NCBI GenBank assembly: GCA_008330645.1
Contig: VLTN01000054.1
Coordinates: forward strand, 176,426-240,425
DNA length: 64,000 nucleotides
From: Cafeteria roenbergensis
Taxonomy: Eukaryota; Sar; Bigyra; Bicosoecida; Cafeteriaceae
Reading direction: 5' to 3'
Shown here: positions 2,247 to 57,109 of the stretch, piece by piece
How the letters are laid out: each line of letters begins with the position of its first letter
Position numbering within the stretch: position 1 is the stretch's first letter
Notes under the pieces: generated by a model
Databases searched by the model: none
Told to the model about the DNA's origin: nothing
Seen by the model: the letters and a program-made list of their open reading frames with translations, nothing else
Position numbers and translations under genes: made by a program

Positions 2247-5200
2247 TCAGAACAAGCCAAACACGCGCTGCTTTTGCTGCGCCTCGAGTTGGCGAGCAGC
2301 TGCGGCGAAGTCAGCGCCAGTTGCAGCAAACGCCGCCGATTGGTCCGCCACCTCGCGCAGCCGTTCGCCCTGGGCCCGGAGCGCAGCGAGGTTGTCCTGC
2401 ATGACGTCCTGCACCTCGCTCAGCCCGCCAGCGGCCCCGCTGCCTGCGCCGCCGGCGCGGTCTTCGCTGCCGCGCATCAGCATTCCGCGCTCCGCAGCCT
2501 GCTCGCGCAGCTCGGCAGACTTGCGCGACGCCACTGCCGCCCGCGCTCGTTCCATGTCGCGCTGTCGCTCGCGCTTGCGGGCCTCCGCTGCCGCCCAGTC
2601 TGCCACGAACTTGCAGAAGCAGCCGTCGCAAACGCGGTGGCGCACGGACGCTTCGCTGGCAGGTCCCGCAGCCGCCGCTGGCCGGCCAGCGCGGCTCATC
2701 GCCTCACGGAGAGGGTCTGTGCCTGGGGCAAGCAGGGGGGCCGCCTTGGACGAGCAGTCCCCACAAACGACCGCGTTGCAGCTTCGGCAGTGGTGGCGCC
2801 GCTGGAACCACCCGAACTCGGCCCCGCAGCCCATGCAGCACAAGGCAGCCGAGTCGGGCAGGAAGGCCGCCTGCGCCAGGGCCACCGCGCACGGCGCCCG
2901 CATCATGCGGTGGCACACGCGGAGAGCGCCAGCCTGAGCTGCCGCGGGCGATGCCGAGGGCTGACGAGCGGCCTGCGCGGCAGGGGGCAGCGGCTCGGCG
3001 CCTGGCGCGACAGCGGGCCCGCCGAGCGTGGTGAGCGCCACTCCCTCGGGGGCGGGAAGCGACGAGAAGCGCGCCGCGGCCGCCTCGAGGTCCAGCCCTG
3101 CTGAGGCGAGCAGGGCCGTGGAGGCCGCCCCAGACCCGTCCACCACCGCGGGCCGGGCACCGGCTCCAAGCAAGGCCGCCACTGCCGCCGCGGCGGCAGG
3201 CCGGTCAAGGGGCGCGAGCTCTGCCGCCGCGGCAGGCCCCGTCGAGGCAAGAGCTCTGCCGATGAAGTGGAGCGGAGTGGAGCAGCCGGTGGAGGGCCCT
3301 GAGCGGAGATTGGGCTTGGCTCCGCACTTGAGCAGCAGGGCCACCGCAGCCGGACTCACGCTGCCGAGCCCGGGCGCCGCAGCGACCAAGGTCCCCGAGG
3401 AGGAATCAGCCACCCAGCCCTCCGCCACCGTGCGCAACAGCTGCGCGGTGGCGGCGTCGCCGGTAAGCCCCGCCCCGCACGCCAGGTGCAGGGCCGTCAG
3501 ACCGCCGCAGCCCCGACCAGGCACCACCTCTGCGCCCACGGGCAGCAGCAGCGCCGCGCGCTGGTGCTCCTCCGCCCGCCGCTGGGCCGCGTCCGCCGAT
3601 CCCGCCTTGGCTGCTGGCGGCGCCGCCGCTTCCGACGACGCTGTTGCTGCTGTCGTTGCTGCTGCCGCTGCTGCTGCCGCAACTGTCTCAAGGAGCGGCG
3701 AGTTGATGTCCACGCCTGCCGCCACCAGGCTGGGCAAGCAAGCCTCGAAGCCGCCGCCCCGCAACACTGCCCGGTGCGCCAGCGTGACGCCCTCGGCCGC
3801 GGAGCCGTCGTCGGCACGGGCCGTGGCGCCGGCAGACACCATCGCATCCACGATCTGGCAAGCCGCCCCAGCATCGGGCCCGGCAAAGGCCGCTTCCAGC
3901 GCGGTTTCACCGAGCAGGTCCGTCGCGCCGCGCCCGCTGACGGGCGACCCGTGCTGGACGAGGGTGGCCACGAGCGTGGCGTGGCCCTTTCGCGCCGCGA
4001 GGCTGACAGCGCAGCGCATGTCCGAGTTCACTGCGGCCACATCACACCCCATTCGGAGCAGCGCGCGTGCGCACTCCAGCTCGCCCGTCTCCGCGGCGAG
4101 CAGCAGAGCCGTGCGCTCTGCGCCGTCCTCGGCGTCGCAGTCCACTTTGCCCCCCAGAAGCGCCGCCTGTGCGCGTGAGGCGAACGCCTCCGCCCCGTCC
4201 ATGGCCACGCCGCCGACGACGCCGCCGGCGGCCGCCGCAGCCCCATCGCCGGCCCTCGAACCAGCACCGGCAGGGCCGGCCGCAGAGCGAGGCAGCGGCG
4301 CCGCCAGCCCAAAGCCCGCAGCGTCGTTCTCAGACGCTGCCCACGACCCCGACGAGGCGGCGGGCGCGTGCCCCGCCGCCGCCGCCGCCACGCCACCACG
4401 GGGCTTGTCTCCGGCTGCAAATGCCGCCACCAGCGCCAGCGCTTCGGCGGAACCCTCCGCCGACACCGAGTCGCTGGCGGCGGCTTCGAGCTCCCGGACC
4501 GACAGCTCCAGGGCCGCCACGAGGGAGGCCAGGAAGGGGTCGGCCGCTGCTGCAACCGTGGCTGGGGAGGAGCGAGCGGCCGCCGCCTCAGCAGGCGTCG
4601 GCTGGCCAGCGCCCGAGTCGCCGGACCGCTGAGGCGGTGCGTGCGGGTCCGCCAGCAGCGTCTCGGGGTCGAACACGCCGTGCCCCAGCTCGCCGGACGC
4701 ACGCCCGATGCCCTCCGCCGAGCACAGGCCCAAAACGTCCGCTCGGACAGCAGAACTGAGGGCGACCGCGGCGTGCAGCGTGTCGTCCCGAAAACGATGC
4801 GCAATCAGGCCCGCCACGTCGTGCGCGATGCGGGCCTCCAGGGGGCACGACGAGGCCAGGCACTTGGAGAGGTTGGCTACCCACCGGCGCTTCTCGGCGG
4901 CATTTTGAGCGCGCATGGTCAGCTCGCCGCTCGGCAAGCACAACCTGAACGAAAACGGCTGCGGTGCCGTTGCCGGCCCAGTCTCCCCGCGGAGAGCAGC
5001 GGCCCTGGCCTCGACGAAGGACAGGTCGCAGTCTTCCACCCGGACTGCCGGGGGGACGGCATGGATGGCGGGTCCCGCGGCGGCGAAGGCCTCGGCAAAG
5101 TCAACATGCTGCTTGACGGAGAGCAAGGTGCGATCGCGCTTGCAAACGAGCAGCGCGTCGTTGAGCAGGACGACCGCCCGAGCCTTGACGCCGCGGAACA

Positions 5201-5675
5201 CTCCCCCGCTTGCTGCGAGTGACATCAGCGAGCAACTCGGGCCGGGGGGGGCGGGGGGGGGAAAGGGTTGGCTCGCGTGGGGCAACGAGGCTGGGCGGTG
5301 CAACTGGGCGTGGAACTCCGGCCCGCAGGCAGCAGCCGGAGAGCGGCAAGCGCCGCGGTCGTGCTTGCCGCAAGTGCCTCGCTCCGAGGGGCGCTCACAG
5401 AAGTGCACTAGGCCCGCCATCACGACGCGGCGGCCCTTGCGGGCCGGGTCAAACCCCAGAGTGTTGCCGCTCGCCAACAGCTTGGAGAGGCGGGCCATCG
5501 CGGCCGCAGCCTCGGCCTCGTCCACCACATCGTCGCCATGGGACGCAAGCTCCGATATCATGTCCATGGCTCCAGGTCTTGGGTCGCTTGGGTCCCCTGG
5601 GCCACGATCTGGCAACCTCGGGGTGCCGAAACGTTGCGCAGGCCAGTGTTCGATTCGCATGTTTGCTTGAGACAT
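2247..5675 (-). CDS. PH - ankyrin - FYVE protein with a C-terminal SNARE-like segment
   Basis: Two exons, complement(2247..5212, 5399..5675), 1080 residues. The 186-base intron has a GTGAGC donor and CGCAG acceptor and splits the PH domain; joining restores a continuous PH strand (VHF then SSGGVFRG). The order is a short helix like the end of a RhoGEF DH domain (residues 37-70), PH (about 75-195), an Ala-rich linker, several ankyrin repeats (about 420-780), FYVE (about 875-960) and a coiled tail. The FYVE core RRHHCRSCNAVVCGDC and the last Cys pair RVCDGC are present, so PI3P binding on endosomes is expected. There is no DH domain upstream, so exchange activity is unlikely. Residues 1024-1070 follow an R-SNARE heptad pattern (see findings). 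The start ATG at 5675 is the first in frame after the divergent neighbour; the methionine at codon 37 is an alternative. Confidence 0.82.
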   Translation of the reverse strand: MSQANMRIEHWPAQRFGTPRLPDRGPGDPSDPRPGAMDMISELASHGDDVVDEAEAAAAMARLSKLLASGNTLGFDPARKGRRVVMAGLVHFCERPSERGTCGKHDRGACRSPAAACGPEFHAQLHRPASLPHASQPFPPPAPPGPSCSLMSLAASGGVFRGVKARAVVLLNDALLVCKRDRTLLSVKQHVDFAEAFAAAGPAIHAVPPAVRVEDCDLSFVEARAAALRGETGPATAPQPFSFRLCLPSGELTMRAQNAAEKRRWVANLSKCLASSCPLEARIAHDVAGLIAHRFRDDTLHAAVALSSAVRADVLGLCSAEGIGRASGELGHGVFDPETLLADPHAPPQRSGDSGAGQPTPAEAAAARSSPATVAAAADPFLASLVAALELSVRELEAAASDSVSAEGSAEALALVAAFAAGDKPRGGVAAAAAGHAPAASSGSWAASENDAAGFGLAAPLPRSAAGPAGAGSRAGDGAAAAAGGVVGGVAMDGAEAFASRAQAALLGGKVDCDAEDGAERTALLLAAETGELECARALLRMGCDVAAVNSDMRCAVSLAARKGHATLVATLVQHGSPVSGRGATDLLGETALEAAFAGPDAGAACQIVDAMVSAGATARADDGSAAEGVTLAHRAVLRGGGFEACLPSLVAAGVDINSPLLETVAAAAAAAATTAATASSEAAAPPAAKAGSADAAQRRAEEHQRAALLLPVGAEVVPGRGCGGLTALHLACGAGLTGDAATAQLLRTVAEGWVADSSSGTLVAAAPGLGSVSPAAVALLLKCGAKPNLRSGPSTGCSTPLHFIGRALASTGPAAAAELAPLDRPAAAAAVAALLGAGARPAVVDGSGAASTALLASAGLDLEAAAARFSSLPAPEGVALTTLGGPAVAPGAEPLPPAAQAARQPSASPAAAQAGALRVCHRMMRAPCAVALAQAAFLPDSAALCCMGCGAEFGWFQRRHHCRSCNAVVCGDCSSKAAPLLAPGTDPLREAMSRAGRPAAAAGPASEASVRHRVCDGCFCKFVADWAAAEARKRERQRDMERARAAVASRKSAELREQAAERGMLMRGSEDRAGGAGSGAAGGLSEVQDVMQDNLAALRAQGERLREVADQSAAFAATGADFAAAARQLEAQQKQRVFGLF

Positions 5676-5762
5676 GCATTGGCGAACAAGGCCGCCCAGG
5701 CGGGCCGCACACCGGCCAGGCTCCCGTCGCACCAGCTCCAAGAAGGAAGCACACGCGCCAAG
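5676..5762. promoter_or_regulatory. 87-base divergent promoter region (FYVE gene / PRXL2-like gene)
   Basis: Two ATGs face away from each other across 87 bases, so both promoters and 5' leaders must share this space or overlap the genes. No TATA-like element is visible. Confidence 0.5.
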
Positions 5763-6856
5763 ATGTCCCGGTCCGCCACTCGCGCGCTCACCTCCGTCCG
5801 AAGGCTCGGGTTCGTCGCGACGGCAGCCGCGGCAGCTGCGATGCCCTCGTTCGCCCACGCTGCTGCCGCCGGCTCTTCGCGCAGCGCTTCTTCTTCCGCT
5901 GCCAGCGCCACCCCCTTCGCGTGCGAGCGTAAGGACGTCGCCCCGGGCCGAAAAGTGGGCGCCACAGGGCTCCCGATGGACGGGCCCGACGGCAAGAACG
6001 CTGCTGACGTGTTGCAGTGAGATCAGGTTCCGCACGCAGGGTCCGTCACTGCCGGCCGGCCCGCCAGAGTCGCGCGTGCTTGCTGATGCAGCCAGCCGCA
6101 CTCAAACGGGATATTTCGTGATGGCCGGCGAGCCTCCTGGTGGCCGGGAGGGCGTCTGTCGGCAGGCTCGGCTGCGCGTCGCGCGGCGTGGCGTTGCTGA
6201 CCGCACGGCCGTCGCCCCCCTGCACCGCTTAGCTGTCTCGCAGCGACATCCGCGTGACGGACCCCGCAACCGGCAAGCAGACCGCGCCCCTTGGCGAGCT
6301 CATCGACGGAGGCGGCCCCGTGTTGCTGCACCTGGTCCGGCGATTCGGCTGCCCGCTCTGTCGCGAGGCCGCTGCCGATCTCAGCACCATGGCGGGCGAG
6401 GTCCAGGCCGCAGGCGGCCGCCTCGTTGCCATCGGCTGCCAGACCGAAGGGTTGGAGGAGTTCGTGGAAGGGTCCTTCTTCGCAGGCCCCGTGTGGGTCG
6501 ACGCGGACAAGCTGGCCTTCTCCGCCCTCAAGCTGCACCGCTCGGGCCTGCACGACGGATACGGCTTCCTGGACCCAGCCTCGTGGTCGGCCATGTGGCG
6601 CTCGTACCAGCGCGGGGTGCCGGGGGACCTCAAGGGTGATGGCTTCCAGATGGGCGGAACGTTCCTTTTCGTGGGAGGCCGCTGCGTGTACGACCACCGC
6701 ATGACGTCACACGGCGACAAGCCTGACGTCGACGAGATCGAGGCCGCGCTCAGGACAGCACTGGCCGCGTCCAAGGTGACGGCAGGGCCCGCTGCAGCCG
6801 CGTCCGGCGTCGCTGGGTCTGAGGCTGCCACGGCGGGCGACTCCCCGCGGGCATGA
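5763..6856 (+). CDS. PRXL2/AhpC-TSA-like thioredoxin-fold protein with N-terminal targeting peptide
   Basis: Two exons, 5763..6016 and 6244..6856, about 288 residues. The donor is GTGAGA and the acceptor TCGCAG; the split codon reads CAC. Residues 1-35 are rich in Ala, Ser and Arg with few acids, then a hydrophobic Ala stretch, as in a mitochondrial or secretory targeting peptide. The rest matches the peroxiredoxin-like 2 (FAM213/PRXL2, AhpC-TSA_2) family: a strand leading into the redox motif FGCPLCRE (CxxC), the later GGTFLFV strand, and a DVDEIEAAL helix. Members of this family are thiol-disulfide proteins, some reducing lipid peroxides or prostaglandin endoperoxides. The substrate here is unknown. 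The C-terminal 40 residues are Ala-rich and probably disordered. Confidence 0.82.
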
Positions 6857-29856: not shown

Positions 29857-31306
29857 ATGCGCGTTATCGCCGGCATCCTTGCCCTTGCGGCGGCCGCTTC
29901 GGCCATGACGCTCAACCACGAGCGCATCTTCGGCGACTGGAAGCGCCAGTTCGGCCGCGCCTACGGCACCACCGGTGAGACCGAGCTTTCGGGCTTCAGG
30001 CCGCGCGCCAATCGAAAGGCGCCAAGTTCAACAAACCATCCCCGCCTAGCCCGCGGGGCCTGCAGCCTTCCAAGCCGCATCTGCGGGTCTTCCGCAACCC
30101 CTCCGATCCCTTCAGGGCGCCCGGGGCGCGCGGGGACCGGCGGGTGGGGACTGCGCCGCAGCGCTAGTCGCCGCCGAGGCATCCTGCCAAAGATCGCGCG
30201 AGCTTTCCGCGTGCCTTGCCCGGGCGGCTACGGCGGCCAGCCCCGGCCGCCTCAGCCAGCGCGAAGCTCCTGCCCGGTCGCCTGTCCGGGCCGGGCCGCA
30301 CGAGCGGGCCGCGGGGAAGGGCGCGATCCGCAGGATCGGGGCCACGGGTCCGTCCTCGCTTCAACTTGGCGCTGCAGAGCCCACAATCAATCGAACGTTT
30401 TCGTCGCTCCATTGTTCCCAAACTGTTCCTTGCTTCGCAGAGGAGGAGACCATGCGCTTCAACGTGTTCCGCCAGAACGCCGCGAAGGTGGTCGCCCACA
30501 ACTCCAAGGGCCTCTCTTGGACCATGGGCCTCAACCAGTTCGCCGACCTCACCGAGGAGGAGTTTGCCGCCAAGTACATCGGCGGCTTCCGCCCCTCCAC
30601 CGGTCCCAAGAACTACGAGCTCTCGCACCTCCGCGCCGTGGACCTCCCGTCCTCCATCGACTGGAGCACCAAGGGCGCCGTGACCCCCATCAAGAACCAG
30701 GGCCAGTGCGGCTCCTGCTGGGCGTTCTCCACCACCGGCTCGACTGAGGGCATCTCCTTCATCTCCACCGGCAAGCTCCCCAGCCTCTCCGAGCAGCAGC
30801 TCGTGGACTGCTCCGGCAGCTACGGCAACCAGGGCTGCAACGGCGGCCTCATGGACAACGCCTTCCAGTACATCATCGCCAACGGCGGCCTTTGCTCCGA
30901 GGAGGCGTACCCGTACGAGGCCCAGGACGGCACCTGCCGCTCCAGCTCGTGCAAGTCTGTGGCCACCATCTCCGGCTACAAGGATGTCCCCCAGGACTCT
31001 GACAACGCTATGATGTCCGCCGTGGCCCAGCAGCCGGTGTCCGTCGCCATCGAGGCCGACCAGTCCAGCTTCCAGTTCTACACCGGCGGTGTGCTCACCT
31101 CCAACAACTGCGGTACCGCCCTTGACCACGGTGTGCTCGTCGTCGGCTACGGCAGCGAGTCTGGCTCCGACTTCTACAAGGTGAAGAACTCGTGGGGCGC
31201 CTCTTGGGGCCTCAAGGGCTACATCCTCCTCGGCCGCGGCTCCAGCTACAACGGTGGCAAGGGCCAGTGCGGTGTGCTCATGCAGCCGTCTTACCCCACC
31301 AAGTGA
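29857..31306 (+). CDS. Papain-family cysteine protease, cathepsin L-like
   Basis: Two exons, 29857..29974 and 30441..31306, 327 residues; the 466-base intron is long for this window. Residues 1-16 form a signal peptide. An inhibitor_I29 prodomain follows, with an ERFNIN-like helix (EEETMRFNVFRQNAAK) and GLNQFADLTEEEF. The mature enzyme starts near LPSSIDWSTKG. Catalytic residues are visible: the oxyanion Gln and Cys132 in GQCGSCWAF, His in LDHGVLVVGYG, Asn in VKNSWGASWG. The length and lack of a C-terminal granulin or extension fit a lysosomal or digestive cathepsin L. Codon use is strongly biased to C-ending codons, more than in neighbours, which suggests high expression. Confidence 0.95.
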
Positions 31307-31787: not shown

Positions 31788-32591
31788 CTACATGAAGTCT
31801 GCGATCTTGGCCAGCTGGTCCTGCGTGAGGCCGTTGAGCCGGCGCGCGAGGTCGATGTCCCCGCCGCTGATGCTCCTCGTCGGCACCGTGGGCGGCTCCG
31901 TTGCCACGTGCGCAGCCCTGGCCAGCGAGCTGGCGGTCGCGCTGGAGCGGGCCGCAGCTGCCCAGTTGAAGTGGTGTCCAGTTCTGCGGAGGTCCTCGTT
32001 GGCGTTGATTGCTGCAAGCAGGTCCTCGCGGGACACCGCAGCGCGCCCCCCGTCCCTGGCTTTGTTTCCGCCAAGCTCCACGAGCTCCGCAGCCACGTGC
32101 TCCACGGCAGCTGCGAGCGCTAGGCCAGACGCTTCCGTGAGGAGGCGCTCTGGAACCAGCGCCGAGATGGCTGCAATGAATGACTCCACATTGACCACGA
32201 GCCCCGCCCTCTCCCCCAAGGGGCCGCCCGCCGGGGCGGACACAAGCTTGGAAACCGCCCGGGCGCCTTCGCTGCAAGCTTGCTTGGCGAGCTCGCCGCT
32301 CATGGCGCTGGCCATTGCTCCCTGCGTGGCAGCCAATGCGTCCGCGCCCTTGTCGGATGCCAGGCTTTCCAGCACGCACGCCATGAGCCCCTCAACGTAC
32401 TGGCGGACTAGCTCAATGCCATCCGTGCCAACCTCGAGATCGGGGTGGACCTTGAGGCCCAGCGAGCGGAGTCCGGGCTCAAGGCACGAGAGGGTCACCG
32501 AGCAGGCGTCAGTCGGCTCCCACGGCCCCGCATTCGTGCCCCCGGAGGCAGCCGCTGCTGCAGCTTTCGATGCCGCTGGAAGGGCGGCCAT
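31788..32591 (-). CDS. H2B-H2A histone doublet-like protein
   Basis: Single exon, 267 residues from ATG 32591; an in-frame stop lies a few codons further upstream. Two histone folds occur in one chain. Residues 39-121 follow H2B: LKVHPD at the alpha-1/loop position, a central helix, and the alpha-C signature SGELAKQACSEGARAVSKL, nearly identical to the universal PGELAKHAVSEGTKAV. Residues 129-204 follow H2A: AGLVVNVE at the alpha-N start, VEHVAAELVELGGNKARD (alpha-2 and loop 2) and AINANEDLRR (alpha-3 end). Acidic-patch positions are kept (three Glu in H2A alpha-2, Glu-Asp at its end, both Glu of H2B). The N-terminal tail is Ala-rich rather than Lys-rich, the H2A alpha-N arginines are lost and there is no docking domain. 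The last 60 residues are unrelated, ending in an LTQDQLAKIADFM helix. Function unknown; see findings. Confidence 0.85.
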   Translation of the reverse strand: MAALPAASKAAAAAASGGTNAGPWEPTDACSVTLSCLEPGLRSLGLKVHPDLEVGTDGIELVRQYVEGLMACVLESLASDKGADALAATQGAMASAMSGELAKQACSEGARAVSKLVSAPAGGPLGERAGLVVNVESFIAAISALVPERLLTEASGLALAAAVEHVAAELVELGGNKARDGGRAAVSREDLLAAINANEDLRRTGHHFNWAAAARSSATASSLARAAHVATEPPTVPTRSISGGDIDLARRLNGLTQDQLAKIADFM

Positions 32592-32955: not shown

Positions 32956-33702
32956 CTATCGGCCTCGTGCCAGGATGGGCAAGAAGACGCCGTGGCAGAG
33001 TCCAAGCCACTGCACGTGGGAGACTCGGTACTCCTTCCGAATGGCATCCAGCGCGTCCCGAAACTCGGACCGGTTGCACTTGCCGTCCATGTTCACGTCC
33101 ACAGCGCGCAGCAGGCGCGCGGCCTCCGCCTTGCCGTCGACGTCGGCACCAGCGCGTGCGTACAGCGTGGGGATCACACACTCGCGCAGCAGCCGCTCGA
33201 GCTCGGCCCCGCCGATGCGGCCGTCGCTGTCCGCATCGCACTGCTCGAACAGCGCGTCCTGCGTGGCCCTCGCGGTGCGCGCCAGGCTTGCGTCCGTGGG
33301 GAACCCGGCGCCCAAGGCGGCGAGGGCGTGGCGGCAGCTGTCAGTCACGAGCACGAACTGCTGGGCCGCGATTGCGTTCATGAAGTCGGGGATGTCCGGG
33401 ACGATGCGGGACACAAATGCTGCCACAAACTCTGACACCGACAGGGCGCCGTCGTGGTCAAGGTCGGCGGAATCGAGCGCCGCCTGCGCCACGCGAGTCG
33501 CCTCGGCTCGGGTCAGCATGGGCCTGCCGTCCGCCTTGGTAACCACCGCAAAGTACCGGGCGAGCTCAGACACGCGCAGCGCCGTGTCCCCGTCCTCGTC
33601 GATCTCTCGGAAGCACCTGCGCGCCGCAGCGCGCACGGCGAACTCCACGTCCGTGCGGCTCAGAATCGGGACCTCGAGCTCCTCCGGCGCGGCTGCGGCC
33701 AT
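32956..33702 (-). CDS. Four-EF-hand calcium-binding protein
   Basis: Single exon, 248 residues from ATG 33702. Four canonical 12-residue EF-hand loops are visible: residues 35-46 (DEDGDTALRVSE), 80-91 (DLDHDGALSVSE), 156-167 (DADSDGRIGGAE) and 202-213 (DVNMDGKCNRSE). Each has Asp at positions 1, 3 (or Asn) and 5 and Glu at 12, so all four should bind Ca2+. The two pairs are separated by a 65-residue helical linker, longer than in calmodulin (149 residues). There is no membrane segment or myristoylation glycine at position 2. It resembles the calcineurin B/calmodulin superfamily broadly, with no specific assignment. It shares a 226-base divergent promoter with the next GTPase. Confidence 0.88.
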   Translation of the reverse strand: MAAAAPEELEVPILSRTDVEFAVRAAARRCFREIDEDGDTALRVSELARYFAVVTKADGRPMLTRAEATRVAQAALDSADLDHDGALSVSEFVAAFVSRIVPDIPDFMNAIAAQQFVLVTDSCRHALAALGAGFPTDASLARTARATQDALFEQCDADSDGRIGGAELERLLRECVIPTLYARAGADVDGKAEAARLLRAVDVNMDGKCNRSEFRDALDAIRKEYRVSHVQWLGLCHGVFLPILARGR

Positions 33703-33928
33703 TTCTGGCGGGCCTCCTCTGGGGCCAGCTGACAAAGCACGACGAAGCCGACTCCGGGGCCGACGGCAAGCGCTGCTGCCCTTGCTGTTCGCGAATCAGG
33801 ACGCACGGTGACTGTTCGGGGCCGTTTCCAAGTTGTCTGGGGCAGCGCGAGCCGCTCTGCTCGGCCGGCAAGCGTGGAATGCGAGCCCGACGGCCACTCC
33901 GGAGCCCGCCTGCTCGGCCCCCGGCAGC
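33703..33928. promoter_or_regulatory. 226-base divergent promoter region (EF-hand gene / Rab-like GTPase)
   Basis: Head-to-head start codons; no recognisable motif. Confidence 0.4.
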
Positions 33929-52058: not shown

Positions 52059-55000
52059 CTAGACAACGGACACAAGGCCCCTTGGCAGACCCATCTCCAC
52101 GTATTGGTCGGAAATTTGCCTTGAGAAGGCACTTGTGCCGCATATGCTGACAAAGAGCAAGTCTTTGGGGGGCAGCACCCCCGCAAGTGTGGATTCCGAC
52201 AGGTATCCAATAGTTGCACGCTTGAACTTGCGCAGGGCCACTCCACCTCGATTAGCCCGCTTCACGTTCACGTGCAGGTCGATGTTTGGCGACATTTGGC
52301 TGCACTTATTCAGCCAATCGCCTTCCAAAATGTCGTCCTCGTCGGCAAAGCAAGCGACCAGCACTAGTTTGAGTTGCAAGGGCGGCCGCTCTCTGGGTGT
52401 CGATCCGCCGAGCGGTGCTCCAGCGCAACCATGGGGGGCTCGATCGGCGCCTGTGGCAGAAGCCGCGTCGTCGAAGCGAGCGTGCTCCGCCCTTGCTTCA
52501 CGCGCAGGCGCGACTGACTCCGCCGCATCCTGCGTGCTGGCAGTTGAGCTCCACCCCTCAACCTGGCCAACTGCAAGTTCAATCTCCGACGAGAAAGGTT
52601 TGAGCGACCTTGATTGTCCGTCAACAGATTCGGCGTCTTCGGCGTGTGCGAACCTGTGCCGGACAGGGTCCATCTCTACGGCTGGTGCGGCTTTGGAGTC
52701 TTCCAAGGCCACGTCCGAGTCGGGGTCGTCAGGTTTGGCTGTCCGGGGCTTGAACCGGGGCCGTTCGCTAGCTGGAGGCTGCGCAGCCGCACGCCCGTGA
52801 CCGTCATGCGTCTCAGAGCGCCAGTCGGTAGTTCCATGCAGGGGAGCCCGCGGCGGATGGGTTGGTGCGAGAGGAGGACGGCGCGAGGGACCGCTTTGGG
52901 AGTACGATTGCTTCCCCTGCATCCCTCGTGGGAGGAGTTCGCCGTCCAGCTCGAATCCCGCGGCCATGCTCTGCAAGCTGGGAGCTACAGCAACTGCGCT
53001 AGCCCCGTGGCCCGCCCGCGTGTCGACCCAAGCACGAGCACGTTGCCTTGGAACCACCGACTTTGTCTGGAACGAGTCTGCCGCCGAGATGCTTGTGAAC
53101 GACATGGTCTTCACAGGGCCTGGGTCAAGCGTGTGCTCTTGACGGGCTGCAAATGCCTTGTCTGCCTCGAGGATGTAGCTGATGAGGTCGAAGTAGGTAA
53201 AAATCGCAGTTCCCTGGGCAATGGCGACGACGATTCCCTCCGAGTCATCGTCCAGGTGGATTCCCACGCCTTTGGGGCCCAGTACCTGAACGCTGTCAGT
53301 GGGCGCAAGCTGGTGCACAAGAGGTGACACCTCGCCCTGCGGGTATTTTCGAACGTACAAATCAAAGCCCTCTCGGTTGTGTCTCCTGACAATTGTGTAA
53401 GGCCGCTCCACGAACGGCAAGCTCTGGTCCGTCCTGGAAATAATTTCCACAACCGAGGCGCGGCGCTTTTTGGCGCGCACGCTGCTACGTGCTGAGCCGC
53501 TTGGCGTGGCAGCGGGGGCGACTCCCTCGACAGGGAATCGAAGAAGCATGTAGCGGCCAAAGGTTGAGGGCCTCCAAGCCAACGCAGGCAGCCCGCTGCA
53601 CTGCCCGTGGAACATTCGGAGCTTCACCACCTGCCGAGACGACCCTGGATTCAGAATTTCTCGAGACAGGACCTTCCATGTTTTGGCATCCTCCGGCCGG
53701 TCACCGCTTGTGTGGTCGGACCAGTGCCCGAACGTCCCGCCCGTGGCCGTCGACTTGAGCACGCCCACGCACATACTGCGGAGCAGGTTGTGGGCTCGCT
53801 GGGAGTGGACGCGCTTGCCAACAATCTCCGAAAAAGCGTCCCGCCCGAAGAAGAACTGCCCGATGTCCGTGCCGATGCTCTTGTCAATCAAGTAGGCCCC
53901 CCCCGGGTGGTTGAATATGAAGTTGGACACGTCGAACACCCACCCGTCGAGCAAGACCCACTTGTTCCCGGCGCGAACCGCCATCTTGACGTCGTGCATC
54001 GTGAGCGACTGGTGCGACTCGGCGATGAACGAGCGGTCGAGCTTGCCGTCCGTCGTGCTGCGGAAAAGATTCGGAGAGCTGAGCGAGTCTTTCGTGATCT
54101 CGTCGTAGGCAGCCAGAATGATGAAGGCAACCGTAATGATGACGAAGAACCCGAGCACGTAGTACTTGATAACGGGCAGAAGCTCCGCAACACCCAGATA
54201 GCAGTTCACCATGCCCGAGGTGGTGAGCACCCAGCCGAAGCCGCGGTGGAACCACTTGGTCCAAAAGAAACTCATGGGCGGTACCTTGGATCCCCTCATG
54301 TACTGCCTCATGAGAGTGCCGGCGACGATTTCGATGATCAGCGTGACGGCCACGGACATGCCAATGTACTGATGCGCGATGGCGGTGCCTCCCGCAGCCG
54401 ACGCCAGCGCGGCCCCGGCCGCTGGGACGGTCAGCGATGCTGCCAGCATCATGGACCACCTGTGAAACGCCTGCCAATTCTTCAGGTGCTTGGCGAAGCG
54501 CACGGTGAAGACGCCGACGGGCACGAGGCAGCCCCACGTCGCGAACATGGACAGACCATGGAAGCCGTACGCTGCCAGCTTGGCGCTTTGAAGTTGCGCC
54601 TCGAAGTCAAGTTGCGCGAACCCACCACCCGCAGCAGTCCCGTTGCCACTTGCTCCGCCGCTCAGGAAGTCCACGCTCAGGCCGGCAACGCGATTGGCGC
54701 CGTGGGTGGCATAGGCATCAGATGCAACGTCCCATGCGACTATGACATCGTTGGCTCCAGCTGTGATTGGCCTGTCGCCGGCAGCGTCGCCTGTGTCGAG
54801 CTTGCGACGGAACGTCACAGTGCTCACGCCACCGCTCTCGCTCCCAGACACCAGCTTCGTGTCCTGGCTGCTGTCCGGCGCCGGCAGCATGTACCCACCG
54901 GCCTTGGCATCTAGCACTTCGGGCGTGCCGCCCTGGACTCGCATCATGATGACGTCGGCGTCTCGCATGCCCTGCCCCAGCCCGATTGCGAACCAGCCGG

Positions 55001-57109
55001 TTCCCTTGAGGGTGGCTGTGATTTCAATCTCATCAGCCCCCGCCGCGGGTGGCACCCATTCGATCGACAGAACTGGCCCCAGGGCCTGGGTGCGTTTTGC
55101 TGCAGAGGCAGATCCCGAGCCACTTCCGCCGCCCGTCCCGCCAGAGGAGCCGGAGCCGCTCCCGCCAGAGCTGCCGCCATCCGTGGCACCGGCCTGCACC
55201 CACTCCTTGGGCACCCGCATGACAGAGTCCGGGATGCTCTTCGCGTCCGTGTTGCGCCGGATGATGTCGGCCATCGTGGTGCCCCGGATCTCGTCCCGCT
55301 CCTCCTCGCTCAGGTAGGGCACGAACTTGCCGCCCTCGTAGTGGCCCAGCTGGTCGTTCTCGAACCAGAAGCGGTCGCCGTCCCGCGTGCGGATGAACTG
55401 CTCGCGGATGATGGCTTTGAAGGTCGGGCCGACGAAGGCGCCAGACGTCGCCTGCTCTGCAAGGCCGCCCACCCACAGGTCCACCTTGGTCACGTCGCCG
55501 CCGTACAGCTGGCTGAGAACTGCAGCAATCTGAGTGTTGGATGTGATGTCGGCAAACGTGCTGGGCGGCTGCAGGCCGTACACCTGGCGCGCGCGAGAGA
55601 AGGAGGGGATCCCTGCGTCGCGACCCCTCAGGACATCCACCGCGGCGAGGTCGTTGCGGATGCCCTCGAGGAAGTTGCGCACATCGTCCACCATGACCGT
55701 GTCGATGGCGGACTCGGGCTGCAGGATGGACCCGCGAAGGTAGTGCGCGATGGTCGTGTACTCGAGGTAGCGCGGGTTGAAGTACACGTCGCGGAGGAGC
55801 AGGTTGCCCGACGCGCAAGTGGTGCCGTCCTCCTCCGCGCACCAGTACATGGAGTTGATGCCCGAGTGGCCGTAGCGGTACGCGGCGACGGCGAAGGCGA
55901 TGTCCACGGACGCGTCCACGGTCGGGTCGTACCCTGCGTACTCGGGCAGTCCCTCGCCGAGGAGGAGCGGCACGTACTCCTTGTACACGACATTCTGCAG
56001 GAGGGCCATGACGCGCTTGCGCGCCTCCTGGAACAGGCGCTCGTCGTCCCACGCGGAGTTGGCCTCGGCGAGCTTGCGTGCCTGGTAGTTGTGCTCGAGG
56101 ACGAAGACGGCGTGCAGGCACAGCAGGCCCGGGTTCACGTTGGCGCGCGGGTCGCCCGCGAAGCGCTGGGCGGCCGAGTTGCGCAGCGGCCCGCCCATGG
56201 GCACGGCATCGCCCGTGTTGCGCGGCAGGCCATTGACGGGGTCGGCGATGAGGAGGCCGCCGTTGAATGTTCGGAGCAGCCGCACGCGGTCGTCGCTCGA
56301 GCCGTAGATGGCGCTGGCGTCGAGGAAGTGCGTCTGGCCGTTGACGGGAGCTCGCGGGTTTCCCTGCGAGGTCCCGCTCGTGGGGTCGTACTGGAGGCGC
56401 TTGAAGCTGATGCGCTGCGTGCCGGTTCCCGCAGGGTCCATGTCCTTGTCTCCTCGAGGCACAGTGATGTTCAGCACCTCGCCGGGCCGGTCGTCCCCCA
56501 TCGTCATGATCACTGCGGAGGCCTTGCAAAGACACGCTTGCGGCTCGTGCATGAGAGCAGCTGCGCTGCGCAGCGTGATTGGCCTCCGCCGCTGCGCTGT
56601 TTCCCAAGCTGTCACTGCCGCTGCTCACTGTCATGCGCCACGAACTGTCCCATAAACGCCGCGAAGAAGCTGACCTCGTGCCTGAGAGGTTTGCAAAAAC
56701 ACAACGCGGCCGAGAGGGCGTGGTAGGCGCACGCCAAGCGAGCTCGGCAAGGCGAGGGCGAGCGCGGAACTCTGGCAGCAGTGCCGTGTCCGACAAGCCT
56801 TTCATGACACCCCCCCCGGCAAACGACACACCCAGCCCTGCCAGGCTTGCGCGACCAGGCTCACTGGTTGTAGCGGAACGGGGGCTGCCCGAACAGGACG
56901 TTCGAGACCACTCGCGGCGCAGGCAGCGTCTCGTCGATGGACGACTTGCCGTCCGCGTAGAAGGCGAGTCCCAGGCGTCGGGAAAACCTGGAGCCCACCG
57001 TCCCCCTCCGAGTCTCCAGGAGGTTGTTCTGGCTGCCGTCGATCGGGGCGAAGAGCTGGGTGGCCGCGGCGCTGACGGCCGCCACGGCCAGCAAGGCAAG
57101 CGCTGCCAT
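52059..57109 (-). CDS. Heme peroxidase - DOMON - cytochrome b561 - cytochrome b5 - FAD/NAD reductase fusion
   Basis: Three exons, complement(52059..56512, 56629..56681, 56865..57109), 1583 residues; the 53-base middle exon carries the distal heme site. Domains in order: signal peptide (1-18); animal-type heme peroxidase (about 20-520) with FAPIDGSQNN, distal FMGQFVAHD, FLDASAIYGSSDDR and proximal-His AAYRYGHSGIN; Ser/Gly linker; DOMON (about 575-720); cytochrome b561 (about 745-900) with histidines in YGFHG, AFHRW, AHQYIG and FHRGFGW; cytochrome b5 (about 935-1015) with NHPGG; FAD/NAD module with RPYTIV, GPKGVG, GTAIFTYFD and a final VSICGTSAF. The peroxidase and DOMON should be outside, b5 and reductase in the cytosol. 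Electrons could pass from NAD(P)H through b5 and b561 to the outside. A low-complexity insert of about 260 residues splits the NAD lobe. Confidence 0.88.

Follow-up and report, generated by a model that had tools for sequence, protein, structure and literature searches.

A predicted H2B-H2A double histone fold protein of Cafeteria roenbergensis that keeps the acidic patch and has lost most DNA contacts

A gene on the minus strand of a 64,000-nucleotide stretch of the Cafeteria roenbergensis genome (contig VLTN01000054.1, positions 176,426 to 240,425; hereafter the window) encodes a protein of 267 aa, P0001, which is almost certainly an H2B-H2A double histone fold. Its acidic patch is kept while most DNA contacts are gone, suggesting that it is probably a histone look-alike for protein binding and not for DNA packaging. 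The gene occupies 31788..32591, and its open reading frame ran from an ATG at 32591 to a TAG at 31788-31790 as one exon without interruption, whereas plus-strand frame 1 across the same interval contained stops. An earlier reading of this DNA made from its letters (the sequence-only reading) had proposed the doublet; its placement on the minus strand is new. The genome holding the window comprises 36,303,456 bases in 167 contigs. Two relatives from other contigs, P0002 and P0003, were 50% and 47% identical to P0001, had the same layout and ended at the same residue.

Two histone folds in one chain

Hidden Markov models (HMMs) of H2B and H2A matched the N-terminal and C-terminal halves, in that order, in all three family members. 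The H2B HMM scored 18.6-21.4 bits across the members (best of 900 shuffled sequences, 8.0) and the H2A HMM 18.4-41.1 bits (best shuffle, 8.7), and the H3 and H4 HMMs gave at most 1.5 bits. In a phmmer search of PDB sequences, residues 47-203 of P0001 matched single-chain H2B-H2A chimeras with E 8.6e-12, and the three-member family profile matched single-chain H2B-H2A in the PDB with E 3.4e-25. These results showed a specific and significant sequence homology to core H2A and H2B, although the Pfam Histone family misses P0001.

The H2B-like fold spanned residues 39-119 (32235..32477), with an HMM score of 20.0 bits over 47-119 and predicted helices at 35-48, 56-78, 85-96 and 99-118. In the alignments it was followed by an inter-fold linker of about 8 residues (120-127; 32211..32234) and by the H2A-like fold at residues 128-204 (31980..32210), which corresponded without gaps to host H2A 20-96, scored 18.4 bits over 156-202 and had predicted helices at 135-142, 153-180 and 188-197. 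The order of H2B fold, short linker and H2A fold given by the sequence-only reading was thus borne out, and the profile check it had proposed returned tandem matches above the shuffles in all three members. The secondary structure of both predicted models likewise contained two histone folds in one chain, arranged as an intramolecular pair, and sequence and models together support a single chain that would fold on itself as an H2A-H2B pseudodimer. In front of the folds lay a low-complexity N-terminal stretch (residues 1-32; 32496..32591) without a basic histone tail, which was modelled with a predicted local distance difference test score (pLDDT) of 30-38 per block and was shorter or missing in the relatives.

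Several results weigh against the H2B-H2A identity. The Pfam-A scan of P0001 returned no family, and PF00125 was passed only by P0003, barely, with 26.8 bits against a cut-off of 26.4. Searched alone against its own genome, P0001 found host H2B with E 4.6e-6 and host H2A only with E 0.18, and its H2A half was the most diverged of the three members (18.4 bits, residues 156-202 only). The same search gave a further weak match on contig C3 (E 0.07). Scans of P0001 and its relatives with Pfam, NCBIfam and PHROGs yielded only weak histone-family matches of P0003, those to PF00808 and NF043032 being under their cut-offs, and sub-threshold chance matches. No relative of the doublet was found in GTDB genomes.

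Nucleosome surfaces kept and lost

Residues were numbered as in human histones, and the three members were compared with the host histones at 142 positions (H2A 18-95; H2B 44-75 and 90-121). At the eight positions that we take to form the acidic patch, 22 of 24 cells were acidic (7, 8 and 7 positions in P0001, P0002 and P0003), compared with 2 of 12 cells at the four other acidic positions of the host. Acids were present in all three members at 6/8 patch positions vs 0/4 of these other positions (Fisher p 0.03), and host-identical residues in all three at 5/8 patch positions vs 21/134 elsewhere (p 0.005); as the member rows are related, these p-values are a guide only. The patch acids of the H2A alpha2 helix (residues 153-180; 32052..32135), namely E164, E169 and E172, corresponding to H2A E56, E61 and E64, were host-identical in all three members. 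In the comparison with the host, the H2B alphaC helix (residues 99-118; 32238..32297) contained the patch acids E100 and E108 together with K103, S107, R111 and K115, which correspond to H2B E105, E113, K108, S112, K116 and K120. Residues E105, L106, K108, A110, S112, E113, A117, V118 and K120 were retained in all three members, and position 116 was basic in each. The complete H2B alphaC face is retained, a point additional to the sequence-only reading; it includes the K120 position, the usual H2B ubiquitin site.

The basic residues behaved differently. The host K/R positions were still basic at 7, 7 and 9 of 22 in the three members, and just 1-2 of the 22 per member had turned acidic, so that most were neutralised. 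H2A R29, R35 and R77 were lost in all three members, and H2B K57 was replaced by D, D and E. Neither the DNA-contact basics nor the basic tails were present as they are in core histones, and the fold core of the three members had an isoelectric point (pI) of 4.8-5.35 and a net charge of -8, -7 and -5, compared with +13 for the host H2B and H2A folds.

Two structural segments were altered as well. In the H2B alpha2-L2-alpha3 region (residues 78-85; 32337..32360), 5-6 residues were missing in all three members; the distance from HP to the GELAK motif of alphaC was 55 in host H2B vs 50, 49 and 50 in the family (5, 6 and 5 shorter). This shared deletion is additional to the sequence-only reading. 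A variable linker (residues 205-236; 31884..31979) replaced the H2A docking segment. Only 6 of its 31 columns at 206-236 were invariant and H2A 96-108 was mostly unconserved; among 12 positions at 93-108, 93 and 103 alone were host-like in all three members, in agreement with the earlier claim that the docking segment was gone.

Also additional to that reading was a nearly invariant C-terminal tail (residues 237-267; 31791..31883) with two predicted short helices. In the tail 26 of 31 columns were invariant, compared with 50 of 167 in residues 39-205. Searched across the genome, the tail matched only itself, and its profile reached a best E of 0.11 against the PDB. A resemblance to half of a BET/ET domain was not supported, as 482 of 500 shuffled sequences scored at least as high as the tail against one BET domain of the genome.

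The following points count against the docking role proposed below. The patch and contact tests are small, because they draw on only three members, on related rows and on presumed lists of acidic-patch and DNA-contact positions. The control consisted of the four non-patch host acids only, and H2B 76-89 was excluded from the position comparison owing to the deletion. D90 was missing in P0001, which has N instead, and E91 in P0003; the acidic patch described by the sequence-only reading thus stood at 7/8 positions of P0001. H2A 20 and 75 remained basic, so that the loss of DNA contacts reported by that reading held for most of them, including the three lost arginines, but not for these two. Folding, or the pairing of H2A with H2B, may be the reason why some patch residues were kept, and the model confidence of the tail was low (pLDDT 30-55 per block).

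A docking platform and its rivals

We propose, with a probability of about 0.45, that the protein works as a soluble docking platform that displays the nucleosome face away from DNA. In this view, H2B and H2A core histones of a eukaryote were fused end to end into a single chain, which then left DNA packaging: the sequence shows that the DNA-contact basics were mostly lost, along with a portion of H2B alpha2-L2 and the H2A docking segment, and that the core of the folds turned acidic. The outer face for nucleosome readers, that is, the acidic patch and the adjoining H2B alphaC surface with the K120 position, has stayed. Its binders may be acidic-patch nucleosome readers, the H2B-ubiquitin machinery or H2A-H2B chaperones, and the tail may recruit, or be read by, a second fixed partner, with the outcome that chromatin factors would be bridged, titrated or pre-loaded away from DNA. 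The decoy for acidic-patch binders suggested by the sequence-only reading is possible as one version of this broader proposal, as the patch was kept and the DNA contacts were mostly lost. A narrower version, which we regard as rather doubtful, is that the protein is the cell's own nucleosome-face mimic, presenting both the acidic patch and the K120 face of H2B in the absence of DNA, by which acidic-patch readers or the H2B-ubiquitin machinery would be titrated, switched, or bridged by the tail to another complex. In the likeness of both folds, the acidic patch and the H2B alphaC face, the protein resembles the core H2A-H2B dimer, from which it differs in being one chain without basic tails, in the loss of most DNA contacts and the docking segment, and in the added C-terminal tail.

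Double histone folds have eukaryotic precedents, which the sequence-only reading had not mentioned; a 2026 review lists SOS, ABTB2/Cca3S, SPT3 and the animal HSIH-DHF proteins (PMC13088155). It is conceivable, though unlikely, that the pseudodimer is a structural interaction domain as in SOS, perhaps cytoplasmic, for which histone ancestry is no longer relevant; its acids would then be needed for folding or for a different partner, and the tail would carry the function. Yet the family matched core H2B-H2A significantly in sequence (E 3.4e-25) and kept the nucleosome-face acids while other host acids were lost. SOS is described in that text as a multidomain exchange factor of animals and Capsaspora with the fold as its N-terminal domain (PMC13088155), whereas the doublet family kept core-histone signatures, is free-standing and has its own tail. 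The SOS H domain shared 18% identity with the doublet in a structural alignment, and P0001, with 267 aa and no Pfam domain, lacked the succession of H domain, DH-PH and Ras exchanger domains. The HSIH-DHF proteins are likewise single-domain eukaryotic double histone folds, some in H2B-H2A order, but the review, citing Miyake et al. 2026, lists them for animals and gives at least 60% identity shared with nucleosomal histones (PMC13088155). The present family is from a stramenopile, has lost most DNA contacts and was only 24-35% (H2A) and 27-33% (H2B) identical to the host histones. By their description in the same source, ABTB2/Cca3 and Cca3S are also divergent H2B/H2A-like pseudodimers, Cca3S being single-domain, but they are animal proteins and ABTB2 carries ankyrin and BTB domains (PMC13088155). 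The doublet is a double histone fold that lacks the features for which SOS and HSIH-DHF membership was tested.

An acidic histone buffer or chaperone, using its patch and acidic core to bind H1 or the basic tails of histones and storing or delivering histones, fits the retained patch, the low pI and the net charge of -5 to -8 of the fold core. This role is improbable, given that the net charge is modest, that the sequence has no long acidic run and that host basics were mostly neutralised, with just 1-2 of 22 per member turned acidic.

Still less probable is a nucleosome variant that takes the place of an H2A-H2B dimer in specialised chromatin or caps nucleosomes that are only half assembled. 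The model does have the overall H2B-H2A geometry, and the cited section of one paper reports that Melbournevirus retains a reduced H2B-H2A variant which still forms particles (PMC12297534). Against it, all three members lack the docking segment, most of the DNA contacts and a portion of the H2B L2 region, and their fold core is acidic.

A capture from a histone-doublet virus of the host, in which the gene may still serve virus defence, concerns origin and could be combined with any function; we consider it to have a similarly small chance. The order H2B-H2A is that of the viral doublets, P0002 and P0003 lie on short contigs that are possibly viral in source, and klosneuvirus doublets, in reversed order, are described in the cited part of a 2022 review as also having a shortened H2B alpha2-L2-alpha3 (PMC9145170). 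Against the link to Marseilleviridae drawn by the sequence-only reading, the best score of the family profile was 92.3 bits for eukaryotic H2B-H2A chains, compared with 49.6 bits for the one viral doublet examined, the Melbournevirus chain 7n8n, so that the family was not closer to viral than to eukaryotic histones. These scores favour a eukaryotic source, although a fast-evolving viral protein would score low anyway, which weakens the argument. The Marseilleviridae doublets (Melbournevirus 7n8n and 9cvt) also differ in forming nucleosome-like particles with DNA. Five scans of viral contigs found no relative of the doublet; these negatives are weak because those of the scans that used host H2A or H2B found no viral histone either.

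The surroundings were of host type, as had been claimed. The nearest Pfam-matched neighbours were a papain protease at 30452-31303 (plus strand) and an EF-hand protein at 32959-33735 (minus strand), and of 18 other frames of the window that were scanned, 9 matched a Pfam family, none of them viral. A recent copy of host H2A was also considered and showed no sign. Of 78 positions, the H2A half of P0001 shared 18 residues with host H2A, 22 with Xenopus and 23 with C. elegans; for P0002 and P0003 these numbers were 27, 26 and 27. As the family is not clearly nearer to host H2A than to animal H2A, the fusion would be old or fast-evolving.

Misassembled histone genes or a decaying pseudogene can be set aside as very improbable and already largely contradicted: relatives are few and the third-position guanine-cytosine (GC) content of the gene is 0.79, under the 0.93 of the adjoining protease, but the frame is one uninterrupted exon, its 90% cluster holds 6 member sequences on 3 contigs, and two diverged relatives share layout and final residue.

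Host histone genes and wider meaning

The genome also carries ordinary core histone clusters, and a hairpin, GGTGTT-CATTC-AACACC or its complement, was present in all 17 core histone cluster loci (L001-L008, L010-L016, L022, L023). In L010, the one locus examined for strand, it lay downstream of both H2A and H2B, reading CCCCGGTGTTCATTCAACACCACC on the sense strand. It has a 6-bp stem and a 5-nt loop (examples at L010:2606 and L010:1374), compared with a 4-nt loop in the usual histone hairpin. A search of L010 with the Rfam library gave no histone hairpin up to an E of 1, while the genome had two matches to SLBP, the family of hairpin-binding proteins; the cluster hairpin is a possible variant histone stem-loop. 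No copy was found in the 64-kb window with up to 3 mismatches allowed, which indicates that the doublet gene is built unlike the clustered histone genes. However, of six other histone-fold loci, five (L024, L025, L027-L029) likewise lacked the hairpin and one, the intron-split H3 locus L026, had it, so its absence alone does not set the doublet apart and is as compatible with a variant gene as with a non-histone role.

Translations further pointed to an H2A.Z-like gene, a second gene for H2B, a centromeric-H3 candidate and the H3 split by an intron, so the doublet is an addition and not a replacement. The centromeric-H3 candidate, at L025:579-1142 (C5:435578-436141, minus strand), is a divergent H3 with an unusual N-tail, matched over two separate stretches of a single open frame. 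A divergent H4-like gene at C98:9090-9410 (plus strand) was 66% identical to the main H4. An H4-H3 doublet, which the sequence-only reading had proposed to look for elsewhere in the genome, was not seen among the matches listed (14 H4, 40 histone).

Elsewhere in the window, which has a GC content of 69.2%, a 1518-residue frame at 52062-56615 (minus strand) combined animal haem peroxidase, DOMON, cytochrome b5 and FAD-binding domains, by appearance an unusual redox fusion. Another frame, of 1284 residues at 2250-6101 (minus strand), contained ankyrin repeats, a FYVE finger and a weak synaptobrevin-like C-terminus under the Pfam cut-off.

Viral peptides seize the nucleosome acidic patch, and a nucleosome-face mimic, if true, would be their cellular counterpart from the opposite side. 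With the DNA edge largely erased and the outer face kept, the protein offers a test of which nucleosome functions reside on the face alone. Searches of an open-access library gave no report of this protein. According to a 2022 review, fused doublets of eukaryotic histones still lacked confirmation, and the cases it investigated looked like annotation errors (PMC9145170), a 2024 review presents eukaryotes as a rule without fused histones (PMC10919886), and a 2024 paper calls fused histones in eukaryotes rare (PMC11222145). A single-exon doublet with two diverged relatives, in a stramenopile distant from animals, contrasts with the 2022 account. It bears on how eukaryotic fusions are related to viral doublets, a matter of dispute in accounts of how eukaryotic nucleosomes arose.
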